Source: Clostridiaceae bacterium
GTDB lineage: Bacteria > Bacillota > Clostridia > Oscillospirales > Acutalibacteraceae
NCBI GenBank assembly: GCA_016282855.1
Contig: JAEELT010000029.1
Location: 1 to 35,075 of the forward strand
Length of the DNA stretch: 35,075 nt
Reading direction: 5' to 3'
Shown: positions 22,574 to 35,060 of the stretch, piece by piece
Position numbering within the stretch: position 1 is the stretch's first letter
Layout of the letters: the number at the start of each line of letters is the position of its first letter
Program-made: the position numbers and the translations under genes
Notes under the pieces: generated by a model
Database searches by the model: none
What the model saw: the letters and a program-made list of their open reading frames with translations, nothing else
What the model was told of the DNA's origin: nothing

Positions 22574-23677
22574 ATGAAAAAAGTATTGTTTGTCGCAACA
22601 GTAGTCAAAACACATATAATGGAGTTTCACCTGCCCTACCTCAAAGCGCTCAAGGAAGATGGGTGGGAAACTGCCGTTGCCGCGCGCAATGACTATGAGG
22701 ACCCCGATGACTGCGTGATACCGCACTGCGATGATTACATCAGCATTGAATTTGAGAGAAATCCGTTTAAGCCTCAGAATATAAAAGCATACCGGGCACT
22801 GAAAAAACTGATTGAAAAAAATGATTATGATGTGATTCACTGTCACACTCCCGTCGGAGGAGCGCTTGCCCGCCTTGCCGCGCGCAAAGCGAGAAAGCGC
22901 GGCACAAAAGTTTTTTACACCGCTCACGGCTTCCATTTCTGCAAGGGAGCGCCGCTTAAGAATTGGCTCATTTTTTACCCGGCGGAGAAGTTTCTCTCTC
23001 GCTTCACGGATGTGCTTTTCACAATCAACAAAGAAGATTACAGCCGCGCCCTGAAGTTTCACGCAAAAGAAACGGTTTATGTGCCGGGCGTAGGTGTTGA
23101 TATTGAAAAATTCAGGAATACAGCCGTTGACCGCGATGCCAAAAGGGCTGAAATCGGCGTGCCGGAAGACGCCTTTATGCTGCTATCTGTTGGTGAATTT
23201 ATTAAAAGAAAAAATCACGAGTTGATAATCCGCGCGCTCAAAGAACTTGACAGCCCAAATATTCACTACGCGCTTGCCGGCTCGGGCGAACTTGATGAAT
23301 ATCTCAAAAATCTTGCCGTTTCGCTCGGCGTTGAAAACCGGGTGCATTTTCTCGGCTACAGAAAAGATGTTGCTCAGTTATACAAAACCGCGGATGTGCT
23401 TGTGCATCCATCTTATCAGGAAGGCTTGCCCGTTGCCGTTATGGAAGCGCTCGCAAGCGGCCTGCCCGTGATTGCCACAAAAATTCGCGGCAGCGCTGAC
23501 CTGATTGAAGACGGCGTGAACGGCTATCTGATTGATAACAGCGTGCCTTCACTCTGTGAAAAGATAAGAGAATTTACAGACAAAGAAAGCGCAGGCAAAG
23601 CGGCCGCTGTTTTACCTGCGAAATATGATGTGAAGTCCGTTGTGGGCGAAGTGATGAAATATTATAATCTGAAATGA
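22574..23677 (+). CDS. Glycosyltransferase family 4
   Basis: The 367-residue GT-B enzyme adds a sugar from a nucleotide donor to the growing lipid-linked chain at the inner membrane face. The N-terminal half has HCHTPVGGALARLAARKARKRG and VFYTAHGFHFCKGAP, as in EpsD/CapM-type enzymes. The C-terminal half has SVGEFIKRKNHELIIRAL, FLGYRKDVAQLYKTADVLVHPSYQEGLPVAVMEALASGLPVIATKIRG (the EX7E region) and a typical end. The ATG at 22574 lies four bases after the previous stop. A TTG 33 bases upstream is inside the previous gene and is rejected. Base composition is still like the housekeeping genes, unlike the genes that follow. Confidence 0.92.
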   Translation: MKKVLFVATVVKTHIMEFHLPYLKALKEDGWETAVAARNDYEDPDDCVIPHCDDYISIEFERNPFKPQNIKAYRALKKLIEKNDYDVIHCHTPVGGALARLAARKARKRGTKVFYTAHGFHFCKGAPLKNWLIFYPAEKFLSRFTDVLFTINKEDYSRALKFHAKETVYVPGVGVDIEKFRNTAVDRDAKRAEIGVPEDAFMLLSVGEFIKRKNHELIIRALKELDSPNIHYALAGSGELDEYLKNLAVSLGVENRVHFLGYRKDVAQLYKTADVLVHPSYQEGLPVAVMEALASGLPVIATKIRGSADLIEDGVNGYLIDNSVPSLCEKIREFTDKESAGKAAAVLPAKYDVKSVVGEVMKYYNLK

Positions 23678-23687
23678 GGTTCTTGCT

Positions 23688-24638
23688 TTGCAAAACGATT
23701 TAATATCGGTAATAGTTCCGGTTTATAATGTTGAAGATTACCTTCGTGAGTGCCTTGACAGCATAATAAGCCAAACCTATACCAATCTTGAAATAATTCT
23801 TGTTGATGACGGCTCCCCTGACGGCAGCGGAACGATCTGTGACGAATACGCAAAGAAAGATTCACGCATAAAGGTTATTCACCAGCAGAATAGCGGCGTT
23901 TCAGTTGCAAGAAACACCGGGCTCAAAGCAGTAACCGGCGACTATATCGGCTTTGTTGACAGCGATGACTATATTGAACCTAACATGTATGAGGAACTGC
24001 ACAGATGCCTTATTGAAAATGATGCAGATATGTCGGTATGCGGTATAAAACAATTTGGCGCGAAGACCAAATCCGATTTTTACGGCAATAAGTGTTTGAA
24101 CAAATCTGCTTTCCTAAAAAAGCTTTTAGATGAAACCGTTCCATCGTATTTGTGGAACAAGCTTTACAAGAAACATCTTTTTTCAGGCATTGTCTTTCCT
24201 GCAAATCTTGTATATGAAGATCTCAGAGTTCTTCATATAGTTACTGACAAAGCGTCAACAATCGGGTTTACAGACAAAACATTTTATAACTACAGAGCAA
24301 GTGATAACACCATAACTTCCACGCGCAATTTGAAAAATATTACCGACCATATTAATGCTTCGCACGAAAGATCCGAAAAATATAAAGATACGGTATACTA
24401 TGTTTATGCTATAACCGGTGAATTTAAGTGCCTGAGGTTAATTGTCTCAGATATGTCTGTTGCGAAACACGATAATATTTTATACAAAAACCTATTTAAA
24501 GAATCAAAAAATCTTTACAAAATCTGTAAAACTGAAATAAAAGGTTTGCAGAAGGTAATAACATATATATATTTAGTTTCACCAAAACTGTATTATGGGT
24601 TTAAAATATTATCCTTTAAATTACACATATTCTCCTAA
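23688..24638 (+). CDS. Glycosyltransferase family 2, tandem copy 1
   Basis: The 316-residue GT-A enzyme has the family 2 start ISVIVPVYNVEDYLRECLDSIISQTYTNLEIILVDDGSPDG and a DxD-like GFVDSDDYIE at about residue 90. Together these bind the nucleotide sugar and metal. The C-terminal half is basic and A+T-rich and has no obvious membrane span. The start is a TTG, eight bases after GAGG, which overlaps the previous stop. The next gene is a diverged duplicate with the same leader and the same TTG start. The sugar transferred is unknown. Two paralogues may add successive or alternative residues. Confidence 0.9.
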   Translation: MQNDLISVIVPVYNVEDYLRECLDSIISQTYTNLEIILVDDGSPDGSGTICDEYAKKDSRIKVIHQQNSGVSVARNTGLKAVTGDYIGFVDSDDYIEPNMYEELHRCLIENDADMSVCGIKQFGAKTKSDFYGNKCLNKSAFLKKLLDETVPSYLWNKLYKKHLFSGIVFPANLVYEDLRVLHIVTDKASTIGFTDKTFYNYRASDNTITSTRNLKNITDHINASHERSEKYKDTVYYVYAITGEFKCLRLIVSDMSVAKHDNILYKNLFKESKNLYKICKTEIKGLQKVITYIYLVSPKLYYGFKILSFKLHIFS

Positions 24639-24682
24639 CAGAAAACATAACAAATCGCTTTAATTGAAATGAGGTTTTTGCG

Positions 24683-25633
24683 TTGCAAAACGATTTGATA
24701 TCGATCATAGTTCCTGTTTACAAGGTGGAAGAATATATCCGCGAGTGTCTTGACAGCATTATAAACCAGACATATACAAACCTTGAAATCATCCTTGTTG
24801 ACGACGGCTCTCCCGACGACTGCGGAAAAATCTGTGATGAATATGCCGCAAAAGACTCTCGCATAAAAGTGATTCATCAGCAGAACGGCGGACTATCCGC
24901 CGCGAGAAACGCCGGGCTGGATATAGCAAGCGGGGGATATATAGGCTTTGTTGACAGCGATGATTTTATTGAACTGAATATGTATAAGGAACTCCATAAA
25001 TGCCTTATTGAAAATGATGCAGATATGTCAATATGCGGCATAAAGAGATTCGGGGATGAGTCTAAATCGGATTCTTACGGAAACAGAAAACTTAATAAAA
25101 ACGAATACCTAAAAGAATTGTTAAAGGATAACATTAAATCTTACGCATGCAACAAGCTTTATAAAAGATATTTGTTTGATGTTGTTCGATTTCCCATCGG
25201 GGAATTATTTGAAGATATTAAAACAATGCATCTTATAGGCGAAATCGTTTCAACGGTCAGTCTTATTGACAAATGTTTTTATAATTACAGAATAAGGTCC
25301 GGCTCTATCACCGCAGAGAATAAAGGTTTACAAGCGAGAGATTATATGACAGCCACACATGTGAGAAGTGAAAAATATAAAGGCACCGATTTTTATGTGC
25401 CTGCAACAGTCGGTGAGTTCAAGTGCCTTAGAGTAACAGTATCCGAGATGTCAATCGCAAAAAAAGACACGAATGAATATAAAAATCTTTTCAGACAATC
25501 CGTAGAATTATATAAAGTATGTCATAAAGAAATAAAAGGATTCCAAAAAGCAATTACCTGTTTATATCTTCTTTCTCCTAAACTTTTTTATTGTATTAAA
25601 AAGATAATTCTGAAGATGGGTGTAGTTTCATAA
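24683..25633 (+). CDS. Glycosyltransferase family 2, tandem copy 2
   Basis: The 316-residue paralogue of the preceding gene has the same length, the same first seven residues, and the same GT2 motifs (IVPVYKVEEYIRECLDS, VDDGSPDDCGKICDEY, GFVDSDDFIE). It also keeps the HKCLIENDADMS segment. The halves diverge after about residue 150, where acceptor recognition usually lies. The leader GAAATGAGGTT and TTG start repeat those of copy 1, so the pair arose by duplication of a unit that included the ribosome binding site. No catalytic motif is lost, so both are probably active. Confidence 0.9.
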   Translation: MQNDLISIIVPVYKVEEYIRECLDSIINQTYTNLEIILVDDGSPDDCGKICDEYAAKDSRIKVIHQQNGGLSAARNAGLDIASGGYIGFVDSDDFIELNMYKELHKCLIENDADMSICGIKRFGDESKSDSYGNRKLNKNEYLKELLKDNIKSYACNKLYKRYLFDVVRFPIGELFEDIKTMHLIGEIVSTVSLIDKCFYNYRIRSGSITAENKGLQARDYMTATHVRSEKYKGTDFYVPATVGEFKCLRVTVSEMSIAKKDTNEYKNLFRQSVELYKVCHKEIKGFQKAITCLYLLSPKLFYCIKKIILKMGVVS

Positions 25634-32197: not shown

Positions 32198-33751
32198 ATG
32201 AACCTTAAATCACTCACCGAAAACAGATATACACTCAACGATATCTTCGTAAAAAACAGCGAGGGCTGGCTTGCCGTTGCTCTGCTGATATATCCGCTGG
32301 CGCATTATATTCATATTATGGTTTATACTTTTTTAGGCAGAAATAAACATCTGGAAATAGAAGAGTTTATTCATTTAGCCTTCACAAAAGAAATGCCGGG
32401 TGACTATCTTGTTGAAATAATAAACACTTCTTTTATTCTCACACTAATAATAGGTATTGCAGGCATTATATCAAAACTAGTATCTGAAAAGCGAAATAAA
32501 GCTCTTATAGATTCTGATAAGATTCCTTCGCTTTTCTTTATCTTTTTCATTATTCTCGCCTGCATTTCTGTGGCTGTAAACGGAATTTCGAGAGAACTCT
32601 TTTTGGGGCTCACTCCCAGAGGAGAAGCTTTTCTGTCAATTCTAATGTATTTCTTCTTCTTTTTTGTCGGGTCACTGATTAGAAAAGAAAAGATAAAATA
32701 TATAATTATATACTTTATAATCGGACTTGGTCTGATTAACGGCGTTATGTCAGTTGTAAACGAATACATTGTTGAAATACCAATAGTAAACAATACCGTT
32801 CATGCCGCTGTTTATTATAACTGTAATTTTTATGCATATTTTCTTACTATTCTCATAATGCTCTCTGCAGGACTTGTGCTTAAAGATAAAAGCAAAGGCA
32901 GAAAAGTATTTGCGTTTATTTCACTGTGTATGAATTCGTTTGTGCTTGCTTTTAACAACACTTTCGGCTGTTTTGTTGCCTGCCTTGTAGCTTTTATCAT
33001 TATGATAATTGCCGATTCGGTAATCAGGAAAAAATTCAGTCTTGTTGCTCTCGCGCTTTTCGGGGTATTTCTCTCTATAGGTATGATAACAAGCCTATTT
33101 GTTGAAAGTTTCTTCACGCAGATTATCAGGCTTTTTACAGACCTTCGTATGATTCTTATGGATTATGAAAATGCCGATGATGCCGGAACTCTGCGCTGGG
33201 GGCTCTGGCGAAACACTATGAGATATATTAAAGAAAAGCCGTGGATTGGTTTCGGCTTTGAGGGCATAGCTGAAAGATTACAGTTAGATACAGAACAAGA
33301 CAAAGTGCATAACGAATATCTTGAGTATGCGGCAGATTTCGGCATACCCGCGGCGCTGTGCTACATCGGAGGCCTGATTGCAGTTTATATCAAGGCGTTT
33401 AAGAAAAGAGCTCAGATAGACGGAGCCACATTCTGCGCGCTGGTCGCGGCATTCGGCTACATCGGCTCGGCATTTTTCGGCAACACAATGGTGTTCATTG
33501 CTCCCCTGTTTTTCATAGTGCTCGGCCTTGCAAACGCGATAGGCGGAGATGAGCCCGCGCCGGAACCCGTGTGTGAGGAAGAGCAGGCAGAAGAAGAAAA
33601 TGCAGAACCCGCGTGTGAAGAAATGCAGACGGAGGAAGGCTCTCCTGTCATTCCGAGTAAAACCGAGGAATCTGAGATCCTTCGACTCGCTTCACTCGCT
33701 CAGGATGACAATGTCTGTCATTCCGAGTCCGCCGGAGAATCTGAGCAATAA
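32198..33751 (+). CDS. O-antigen ligase/polymerase-like membrane protein (Wzy)
   Basis: The 517-residue protein has about eleven membrane helices and a large external loop with LRWGLWRNTMRYIKEKPWIGFGFEGIAERLQ, then DKVHNEYLEYAADFGIPAALCYIGGL. These are signatures of the Wzy_C/O-antigen ligase family, with the loop R, W, H and E residues. It polymerises or ligates the flipped oligosaccharide outside the membrane. After helix 11 (about residue 445) the tail is acidic, with a tandem near-repeat (EPVCEEEQAEEENAEP, ACEEMQTEEG). The last about 37 residues are encoded by palindromic repeat copies and end on a stop beside the GIY-YIG gene. The original stop is probably lost. Confidence 0.9.
   Translation: MNLKSLTENRYTLNDIFVKNSEGWLAVALLIYPLAHYIHIMVYTFLGRNKHLEIEEFIHLAFTKEMPGDYLVEIINTSFILTLIIGIAGIISKLVSEKRNKALIDSDKIPSLFFIFFIILACISVAVNGISRELFLGLTPRGEAFLSILMYFFFFFVGSLIRKEKIKYIIIYFIIGLGLINGVMSVVNEYIVEIPIVNNTVHAAVYYNCNFYAYFLTILIMLSAGLVLKDKSKGRKVFAFISLCMNSFVLAFNNTFGCFVACLVAFIIMIIADSVIRKKFSLVALALFGVFLSIGMITSLFVESFFTQIIRLFTDLRMILMDYENADDAGTLRWGLWRNTMRYIKEKPWIGFGFEGIAERLQLDTEQDKVHNEYLEYAADFGIPAALCYIGGLIAVYIKAFKKRAQIDGATFCALVAAFGYIGSAFFGNTMVFIAPLFFIVLGLANAIGGDEPAPEPVCEEEQAEEENAEPACEEMQTEEGSPVIPSKTEESEILRLASLAQDDNVCHSESAGESEQ
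33646..33710. repeat. Palindromic repeat copy A (full)
   Basis: This 65-base unit starts TGTCATTCCGAG and ends CTCAGGATGACA, so its ends are inverted relatives of one another. The centre GAATCTGAGATCC is a second, inner inverted repeat, and TCGACTCGCTTC lies in the right arm. It lies inside the 3' end of the wzy-like gene and is translated as part of it. Intact copies of nearly the same sequence are at 34124-34188 and 34997-35060. Confidence 0.9.
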
Positions 33752-34088
33752 GGTGTTTTTATGCGCGACTGCAACTACTATGTGTATATAATCACAACAC
33801 AGAACAACAAAGTAATGTATGTAGGGGTGACAAACGACCTTGCACGCCGTATATCTGAGCATAAGAACAAACTGATTGATGGTTTTACAAAAAAGTATAA
33901 TGTAAACAAACTGGTTTATTACGAACACACAACAGATGTGTATTCTGCAATTGAAAGAGAAAAGCAAATAAAAGGTTGGCGGCGTAACAAAAAGAATGAA
34001 TTGGTTGAAACAATGAATCCTGAGTGGAAAGACTTGAGTGAAGAATTGTTTTAGATCTTTCGACTCGCTCCGCTCGCTCAAGATGACA
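33716..34088 (+). mobile_element. Palindromic element split by a GIY-YIG gene
   Basis: The left half (33716-33745) starts TGTCATTCCGAG and ends GAATCTGAG. The right half (34055-34088) starts ATCTTTCGACTCGC and ends GCTCAAGATGACA. Joined, they give 64 bases, the same length as the intact copies. Between them lies only the nuclease gene with its ribosome binding site, and an AG dinucleotide is repeated at both junctions. It reads as an autonomous version of the repeat, or an insertion at the exact centre of one. It lies five bases after copy A and five before the next copies. Confidence 0.75.
33761..34054 (+). CDS. Small GIY-YIG nuclease domain protein
   Basis: The 97-residue protein is a single GIY-YIG domain with the expected order. 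YYVYIITTQNN holds the Y-V-Y strand and MYVGVTNDLARRISEHK holds the Y-V-G strand and catalytic Arg. KLVYYEHTTDVYSAIEREKQIKGW contains the catalytic Glu (IEREKQIKGW). This size matches the stand-alone UPF0213/YhbQ-like group, which cuts DNA or removes damage in relatives. Function here is unknown. It starts at an ATG after AAGGTG and ends with a TAG whose AG begins the right half of the palindrome. It lies entirely between the two halves of one repeat unit, so it is probably mobile with it. Confidence 0.93.
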   Translation: MRDCNYYVYIITTQNNKVMYVGVTNDLARRISEHKNKLIDGFTKKYNVNKLVYYEHTTDVYSAIEREKQIKGWRRNKKNELVETMNPEWKDLSEELF

Positions 34089-34093
34089 GTTTT

Positions 34094-34122
34094 TGTCATT
34101 CCGAGCAACGCCGAGGAATCTC
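34094..34122. repeat. Palindromic repeat copy C (left half only)
   Basis: It starts TGTCATTCCGAG and runs to GAGGAATCTC, so only the left arm up to the centre is present. It is followed after a single base by a full copy. The same half-then-full arrangement recurs at 34967-35060. Confidence 0.8.
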
Positions 34123-34123
34123 T

Positions 34124-34188
34124 TGTCATTTCGAGTGAAAGCGAAAAATCTGAGATCCTTCGACTCACTTCGTTCGCTCAGGATGACT
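34124..34188. repeat. Palindromic repeat copy D (full)
   Basis: This 65-base unit begins TGTCATTTCGAG, has the centre AATCTGAGATCC, and ends GCTCAGGATGACT. The last base differs from the A of other copies. It is followed by GTTT and the next copy. The plus and minus reading frames over it are repeat translations, not proteins. Confidence 0.85.
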
Positions 34189-34192
34189 GTTT

Positions 34193-34365
34193 TGTCATTC
34201 TGAGCCTGTCGAGGAAGCTCAGATCCTTCGGCTCACTTCGCTACCCCTCAGAAACATGGTCGCCCTGCTCGCTGGCTCACTTCGCAGGTCTCCCTGTTTC
34301 TTCATCTCAGCATAACGCCTTCATCTGCCACCGGCAGCGGCGTCATGCTTCGACCCAAGATGACA
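34193..34365. repeat. Palindromic repeat copy E (long, degenerate)
   Basis: This unit begins TGTCATTCTGAG, keeps a related centre (GAAGCTCAGATCC), and ends CAAGATGACA at 34365, but it spans 173 bases. The extra central part (about 34240-34345) is G+C-rich, with several inverted repeats of its own. It has no reading frame like the GIY-YIG gene. It is a longer subtype or a copy that received an insertion. Confidence 0.6.
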
Positions 34366-34966: not shown

Positions 34967-34994
34967 TGTCACTCCGAATTCAGTCGAGGAATCC
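34967..34994. repeat. Palindromic repeat copy G1 (left half)
   Basis: It begins TGTCACTCCGAATT and runs to GAGGAATCC, a left arm without centre or right arm. It is followed after two bases by full copy G2. Confidence 0.8.
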
Positions 34995-34996
34995 TT

Positions 34997-35060
34997 TGTC
35001 ATTCCGAGCCTGCCGAGGAATCTCAGATCCTTCGACTCGCTTCGCTCGCTCAGGATGACA
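34997..35060. repeat. Palindromic repeat copy G2 (full)
   Basis: This is a 64-base copy beginning TGTCATTCCGAG and ending GCTCAGGATGACA. It has the centre GAATCTCAGATCC and the TTCGACTCGCTTCGCTCG right arm. It is the best preserved unit in the window and is close to copy A. Confidence 0.9.

Follow-up and report, generated by a model that had tools for sequence, protein, structure and literature searches.

A GIY-YIG nuclease gene between inverted REP-like arms: a candidate minimal mobile element in a Clostridiaceae genome and its relatives

The window analysed here is a stretch of 35,075 nucleotides from a Clostridiaceae bacterium (GenBank assembly GCA_016282855.1, contig JAEELT010000029.1). 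The last 1.5 kb of the window is an array of repeat arms of 26-36 nt, which resemble repetitive extragenic palindromic (REP) sequences. Within this array lies a small gene for a GIY-YIG (URI-type) nuclease of 97 aa (33761..34054, + strand; 97 codons and a TAG stop), and the gene is enclosed by two inverted arms. The left REP-like arm on the + strand (33716..33745; 30 nt, TGTCATTCCGAG...CTGAG) has an imperfect stem and a TGTC tag that faces outwards; the right REP-like arm (34053..34088) reads TGTC-ATCTT...AAGAT-CT on the - strand. From arm to arm the element covers 373 bp (33716..34088, + strand); the 363-bp units of Burkholderiales described below are its counterparts for comparison. On balance, we read it as a minimal mobile element, some 0.37 kb long, composed of a URI-type GIY-YIG gene and two inverted REP-type arms with CGTC or TGTC tags.

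The start of the right arm overlaps the final two bases of the nuclease stop codon; this part is 34 nt long (34055-34088), or extends over 34053-34088 when the AG common to the stop codon is counted. The original prediction, made from the letters of the window alone, had described this shared AG and the overlap of the TAG, and the coordinates agree. It had also noted that the left part of 30 bases, ending in CTGAG, and the right part of 34 bases flank the nuclease gene and add up to 64 bases, the length of an intact copy; the gene-less inverted arm pairs of the window (33646..33710, 34124..34187 and 34997..35060, all + strand) are indeed 64-65 nt long. The proposal that the gene sits at the centre of one palindrome is retained only in part: the pair is split, but each 'half' is a tagged hairpin-like arm of its own, and the gene lies between two inverted arms. 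Further arm copies surround the gene and its arms at 33646-34242 and 34967-35060, including a lone + arm (34094..34120), a pair with a truncated right arm (34193..34242, + strand) and a degenerate + arm (34967..34993). The window arms have a TGTC tag followed by a stem starting with AT, and most of them form inverted pairs, 64-65 nt long, in which the tags are outermost; the uninterrupted stem is about 5 bp, the loops are longer and the tails are CT. The window genome is 85.6% complete and contains one nuclease gene of this type; a second PF01541 match lies inside a 635-codon frame, which is probably UvrC. The arms are a modest repeat family in this genome, with 7 matches to the right arm and 10 arms by another pattern. 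One of them is a solitary arm (L010, G000:C111:12370-12404), of which 37 nt are identical to the arm 3' of the window nuclease gene. No convincing remnant of a nuclease gene was found beside the other repeats of the window genome, L010 included.

The 97-aa product matched PF01541 with an E value of 3.7e-19, which agrees with the identity first proposed for it. Its Pfam matches were GIY-YIG and T5orf172 only, with no Y1 HuH transposase. In an alignment of 50 homologues, which drew on 49 of the 80 best loci introduced below, the residues Y9, Y20, G22, R30, H34, E67, K71 and N86 were invariant; Y9, Y20, R30, E67 and N86 are presumably the catalytic Tyr, Tyr, Arg, Glu and Asn of the superfamily. 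Domain and conserved residues together place the predicted product in the GIY-YIG superfamily. The AlphaFold2 model (pLDDT 90.6) matched the UPF0213 structure 1zg2 (E 1.4e-4; also matched by sequence, E 7e-4), and the N-domains of Slx1 and UvrC more weakly (E 0.01-0.1 and above); the fold is what it shares with these proteins. GIY-YIG enzymes form no covalent DNA intermediate and cannot rejoin DNA alone; the product is therefore not a classical transposase.

The limits of the element were seen in Burkholderiales. Three copies in one genome (L239, L240 and L241 in G612) and one in a relative (L247 in G518) are each exactly 363 bp from arm to arm. In the ungapped comparison of these four copies the inside is 68-75% identical and the left arm 86-96%, and the 100 bp outside are 20-35% identical; the frames at the matches are open. 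G612 holds a fourth copy, L242, with an arm variant of its own. By sequence, arms and gene form one unit, which in Burkholderiales is sharply bounded at the tags; the unit is found at unrelated sites and is present in some relatives and absent from others.

Candidates from other phyla were collected by scanning species genomes with an alignment of close homologues. Only the best 80 of 574 candidates were kept (55-74% identity, 21 named phyla), so the sample leans towards close relatives of the query. With a strict detector, 65 of the 80 loci have an arm no more than 150 bp from the gene (upstream 53, downstream 56, both sides 44), and the background density of arms more than 600 bp from the gene was 0.0335 per 150 bp. 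The arrangement of a gene between arms is far beyond chance. The right arm frequently begins within 20 nt past the stop codon. By a first detector an arm was found beside the gene at 64/80 loci; 14 of the 16 negative loci show arm-like sequence by eye within 200 bp, the exceptions being L088 (at a contig end) and L113. Some of these loci have compensatory stems, for example ACCCC/GGGGT in L065. Repeated nesting had been named beforehand as a test of the original prediction, and it was found both in these counts and in the 363-bp units with unrelated flanks.

The reverse question, whether such arms also enclose other genes, was surveyed around 78 loci, after leaving out L056 (= L016) and L091 (= L021) as duplicate places. 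In 27 cases, the arms next to each other in nested order have the known nuclease gene between them, at a distance of 297-672 nt. Of the 92 remaining pairs, 62 are 16-40 nt apart, 2 are 201-700 nt apart and 9 are wider. No unrelated gene was recognised between inverted arms 201-700 nt apart at these loci, the 9 wider pairs not having been looked at, so this possible refutation did not materialise. One arm of the pair at L089 looks spurious, and the pair at L095 encloses a second GIY-YIG frame. Chance insertion of the gene beside repeats was rejected on the arm rate of 65/80, the edges of the 363-bp units and this survey. The second frame at L095 (Omnitrophota; L095:4570-4924) has one internal stop and dRS3-like arms and lies immediately behind the first element; two element types adjoin there, the arms of the second frame being of the other type. 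At L015 and L022, a whole repeat dimer occurs as a direct repeat on either side of the nuclease gene.

Closer to the window, 33 of 300 genomes of its bacterial family have a nuclease match, and loci were retrieved for 11 of 12 close and 19 of 23 distant hits. Arms stand beside the gene at 7 of the 11 close loci (the window included) and often differ in sequence. The distant GIY-YIG genes (28-40% identity), which we take to be UPF0213-like, differ in having no arms by the strict detector (0/19) and an arm at 1/19 by a looser detector, which matches 7-8% of distant 300-bp windows; they were rejected as carriers of the element. Homologues without arms, which could have spoken for a chance insertion, are mainly these distant ones. 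By the looser detector, the first 29 Burkholderiales loci have an arm on any side in 25/29 and on both in 12/29, and 20 further copies have an arm within 200 bp in 14/20 and on both sides in 8/20. On contigs listed as viral (L124-L136), 3 of 16 loci were set aside for their short matches, and 2/13 have arms by the strict detector; of 11 viewed by eye several have arms, on both sides in L133.

The sites of two Burkholderiales copies were compared among relatives, using the joined flanks of L239 (site b239) and L241 (site a241) as queries; both flanks were located in 11/12 loci for b239 and 8/12 for a241. State labels at these sites and in Verrucomicrobia were assigned by reading the sequences. 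Site b239 (11 loci) is full in 3, collapsed in 2, clean empty in 5 and other in 1. The neighbouring genes overlap in the clean loci; a collapsed locus has one palindrome, tagged at both ends, at the point of insertion. One collapsed copy (L268) groups with two full copies (L270 and L272; support 100/99), and L268 and L270 have their immediate flanks in common. Site a241 (8 loci) is full in 3, holds collapsed palindromes in 2, neither in 1, and more than 1.1 kb of other sequence in 2. Collapsed palindromes, as labelled here, sit at the insertion points of full copies. Full, collapsed and empty states at one site are the variable occupancy that the original prediction had asked about.

Similar variation was observed in two other groups. 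In Verrucomicrobia, 30 loci were compared at the junction of an ABC ATPase with its permease. It is full in 7, with frames open over the match; 2 loci have a shortened gene, 1 has both arms with a short interior (L225), 11 are short and empty without arms, 7 contain other filler and 2 are unresolved. In the permease tree, which includes 25/30 loci, the sisters L217 (full) and L220 (empty) have branches of 0.010 and 0.003. L233 contains two further short arm-to-arm copies, similar to L225 by eye; these short elements consist of an arm, about 85-110 nt and an arm, their interiors are alike by eye and not clearly nuclease, and they are a possible non-autonomous family. In Bifidobacterium, 108 genomes have the permease, and 23 of 30 returned loci were used, among which L189 reaches 66 nt past the stop. 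Arms and gene are present 3' of the FtsX-type permease in 2/23 loci (two species); at the other 21 junctions the gene is absent and so are the arms, with L191 as a possible exception (a hairpin, maybe a solitary arm). The permease of L176 is 80% identical, yet its junction has neither gene nor arms. At L195 (G763), an array of another palindromic repeat (GGTCACGCGATGG...) lies behind the permease.

If the element is mobile, the arms would be cis sites of the nuclease, which might recognise an arm as a single-stranded hairpin and nick near its tag. The GIY-YIG fold points this way, as do the Ssn enzymes of Neisseria, reportedly described in Nature Communications in about 2025 as small single-strand-specific GIY-YIG nucleases with a cognate repeat, NTS, which we guess to be dRS3. 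That small GIY-YIG nucleases are paired with such repeats may thus have been published already, and the pairing is not claimed as new. Nicks at the two arms could free or expose the unit during replication or DNA uptake, or allow it to be copied; host ligase or recombination, rather than the nuclease, would then join it into a new, usually intergenic site. Slippage could delete the inside, because an identical stem sequence is present in direct orientation in both arms, and would leave gene-less palindromes as the dispersed repeats. The collapsed form is the expected product of slippage between the stem sequence common to both arms. We infer the cutting and the excision, and also the direction in which the sites change. 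The original prediction had proposed the nuclease element as the parent of the palindromes; the nesting and the variable occupancy agree with this, and the direction from full to collapsed is only the parsimonious one. Many short bacterial palindromes may be shrunken remains of such elements.

The states of these sites also bear on another explanation, that of a homing-type gene for which older palindromes serve as targets: the palindrome would be cut at its loop, and an occupied copy would donate the gene by gene conversion. GIY-YIG homing genes that stand free are well known, and they resemble the present case in that a small gene lies in or beside its own possible target. The outer arm halves could provide the homology, since a collapsed palindrome equals the outer left half plus the outer right half; collapsed palindromes at occupied sites fit this, as do the interleaving of full and collapsed copies at b239 and the collapsed copies of a241, which are not nested among the full ones. 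However, the arm-free empty sites do not fit: no arm is present at the 5 clean b239 loci, the 11 short Verrucomicrobia junctions or nearly all unoccupied Bifidobacterium junctions, which indicates that arms and gene mostly come and go together. Moreover, each arm is a complete hairpin and not an interrupted one, and, unlike with homing endonucleases, the complete inverted arms are mostly gone where the gene is gone. Homing is considered unlikely, although it has more in its favour than the explanations taken up below.

The arms of the proposed mobile element were compared with a known repeat superfamily. According to its description (Di Nocera et al. 2013, PMC3733652), the CGTC-tagged REPs have a stem of 8-9 bp, a loop of 4-5 nt and mostly a CCA tail; many copies carry TGTC as the tag, and the stem opens with AT. 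The description also identifies the Neisseria dRS3 repeats as CGTC-1 REPs and states, in 2013, that the CGTC/TGTC-tagged superfamily is without a dedicated transposase. Measured against this account, the window arms share the tag and the complementary first stem pairs A-T and T-A (TGTC-ATTC.. and TGTC-ATCTT..), whereas their stems, CT tails and long loops depart from it. The Burkholderiales arms agree in stem, loop and CCA tail as well, and many of them are classical CGTC...CCAG repeats. The dispersed copies are also alike, with dimers and heterodimers; they occur mostly as inverted pairs, although the window genome itself has only 7-10. By these sequence features, the repeats of the element belong with, or adjoin, the CGTC superfamily. 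Of 182 arms chosen by tag and tail alone, 149 have complementary bases at the three variable stem positions, whereas 2000 shuffles gave 22 on average and 39 at most; there are several arms per locus, so the 182 are not all independent. Read across these loci, the arm stems pair through compensatory change.

Nuclease and repeats also tend to occur together. The arm pattern was matched at least once in 48 of 50 nuclease genomes (50 of the genomes of the 80 loci were counted); the reversed control gave 6 matches in 5 genomes. In Burkholderiales, 32/51 genomes with a close homologue are REP-rich vs 39/298 without (p 3e-13), with thresholds (E <= 1e-22 and at least 10 arm matches) set after viewing the tables and counts made by hand. 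In the window family, arms were found in 6/11 genomes with a close homologue, meaning those with retrieved close loci, vs 18/289 without (p 5e-5). The types vary together as well. The first contrast, of GVTN/GVTS nucleases against the arm tail, gave 54:9 against 7:17 (123 loci, with the duplicates L056 (= L016), L091 (= L021) and L157 (= L113) dropped). In a contrast picked after inspecting the loci, CC-tailed arms accompany GTLY-type nucleases in 17/17 Burkholderiales cases and other nucleases in 1/8 (scorable arms; p 1.7e-5). Arm type and nuclease subtype, as scored here, co-vary within Burkholderiales. The nuclease tree (78 sequences, 95 columns) has 36 changes of phylum label for 21 phyla, with a minimum of 20 and a shuffled mean of 42.7. 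It suggests that relatives mix across phyla; the tree is poorly resolved (3/75 branches starred) and dates nothing.

This co-variation might also be expected if nuclease and repeats were a pair useful to the host and immobile now, with the nuclease acting on dispersed single-strand repeats, for example in tuning DNA uptake and recombination, and the repeats being retained for this role. The nuclease genes are often single-copy and broadly persistent, and the reported Ssn work in Neisseria points in the same direction. Nevertheless, occupancy differs between close relatives, damaged and collapsed copies exist, and relatives mix across phyla in the poorly resolved protein tree; such a pair is judged improbable, more so than homing. 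That repeats simply pile up in intergenic DNA near weakly constrained genes, the nuclease among them by chance, is very unlikely: the repeat arrays around the gene in the window and elsewhere and the many genomes with repeats but without the gene would suit it, but the unit edges, the 0/19 distant homologues with arms, the lack of any other gene recognised between arms at 201-700 nt, and the co-variation of nuclease with arm and of stem with stem do not.

Several observations weigh against the mobile element as well. The copies are about 30% divergent, so no recent jump has been caught. The four 363-bp copies, inspected by eye, show no consistent target-site duplication, as would mark a classical insertion sequence or miniature inverted-repeat transposable element. 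The two collapsed copies of a241 form a group separate from its three full copies (100/100), with no sign of recent collapse. By the strict detector, 15/80 loci have no arm and 36/80 lack one on at least one side, and the nearest arms are not always nested (+|- 23, -|+ 8, +|+ 9 and -|- 4 of 80). Many genomes hold a single copy, and among REP-rich genomes 18/24 in the window family and 39/71 in Burkholderiales have no close homologue. Outside Burkholderiales the trend between tail and subtype is not significant (2/3 vs 9/64, p 0.07), and across phyla nuclease identity correlates modestly with arm similarity (rho 0.175, 10/1000 permutations as high; 1379 pairs with members from different phyla). 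In the window itself, the arms are imperfect and fold weakly as single strands (z -2.0 to 1.3, six stretches). They were dropped as stable single-strand structures; the hairpin claim therefore rests on the covariation across loci and not on the window, whose copy may be old.

Among the closest known systems is the REPtron of REP and RAYT (TnpA-REP), which the original prediction had named as a parallel. As described (PMC6006769), it likewise has an enzyme gene between REPs, co-variation of enzyme subclass and REP, and a patchy distribution; whereas the RAYT is a Y1 HuH transposase, and the enzyme here is a GIY-YIG nuclease. According to that description, REPtrons do not seem to move as a whole, in contrast to the GIY-YIG unit found at unrelated sites. 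The parallel therefore extends to the gene flanked by REPs and to the co-variation, but the enzymes are unrelated and the activity of the present one is only predicted; without a HuH transposase the element would be REPtron-like in its working, but it is not a REPtron. A search of open-licence papers found none that describes a GIY-YIG gene nested between REPs, the unit edges, the series of full, collapsed and empty sites or the link to the CGTC superfamily. A term search of the main text of the RepRanger survey (2025) gave neither 'GIY' nor a word starting with 'nuclease'.

One of the two large REP superfamilies was described with the question of its mobiliser left open; the mobile element would supply a candidate enzyme for it and would make that question testable with single-gene experiments. 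Natural full, collapsed and empty alleles are available at one site. A small nuclease family and a repeat, both very widespread, would also be linked and, if true, an element of about 360 bp would be among the smallest with its own enzyme. More tentatively, and with our judgement leaning slightly against it, such elements could form a separate class of about 360 bp, arranged as repeat-nuclease-repeat and free of a transposase, which spreads across phyla and by collapse is the source of CGTC/TGTC REPs throughout bacteria.

Two other features of the window were noted. An O-antigen-ligase-like (Wzy_C) frame at 32198-33751 continues through repeat copies, so repeat sequence and the left arm of the element encode its terminal residues, starting at about SPVIPSKTEESEILRLASLAQDDN. 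Further upstream, a direct repeat of 300 nt is present at 23670-23969 and 24665-24964, with 79% identity between the two copies.

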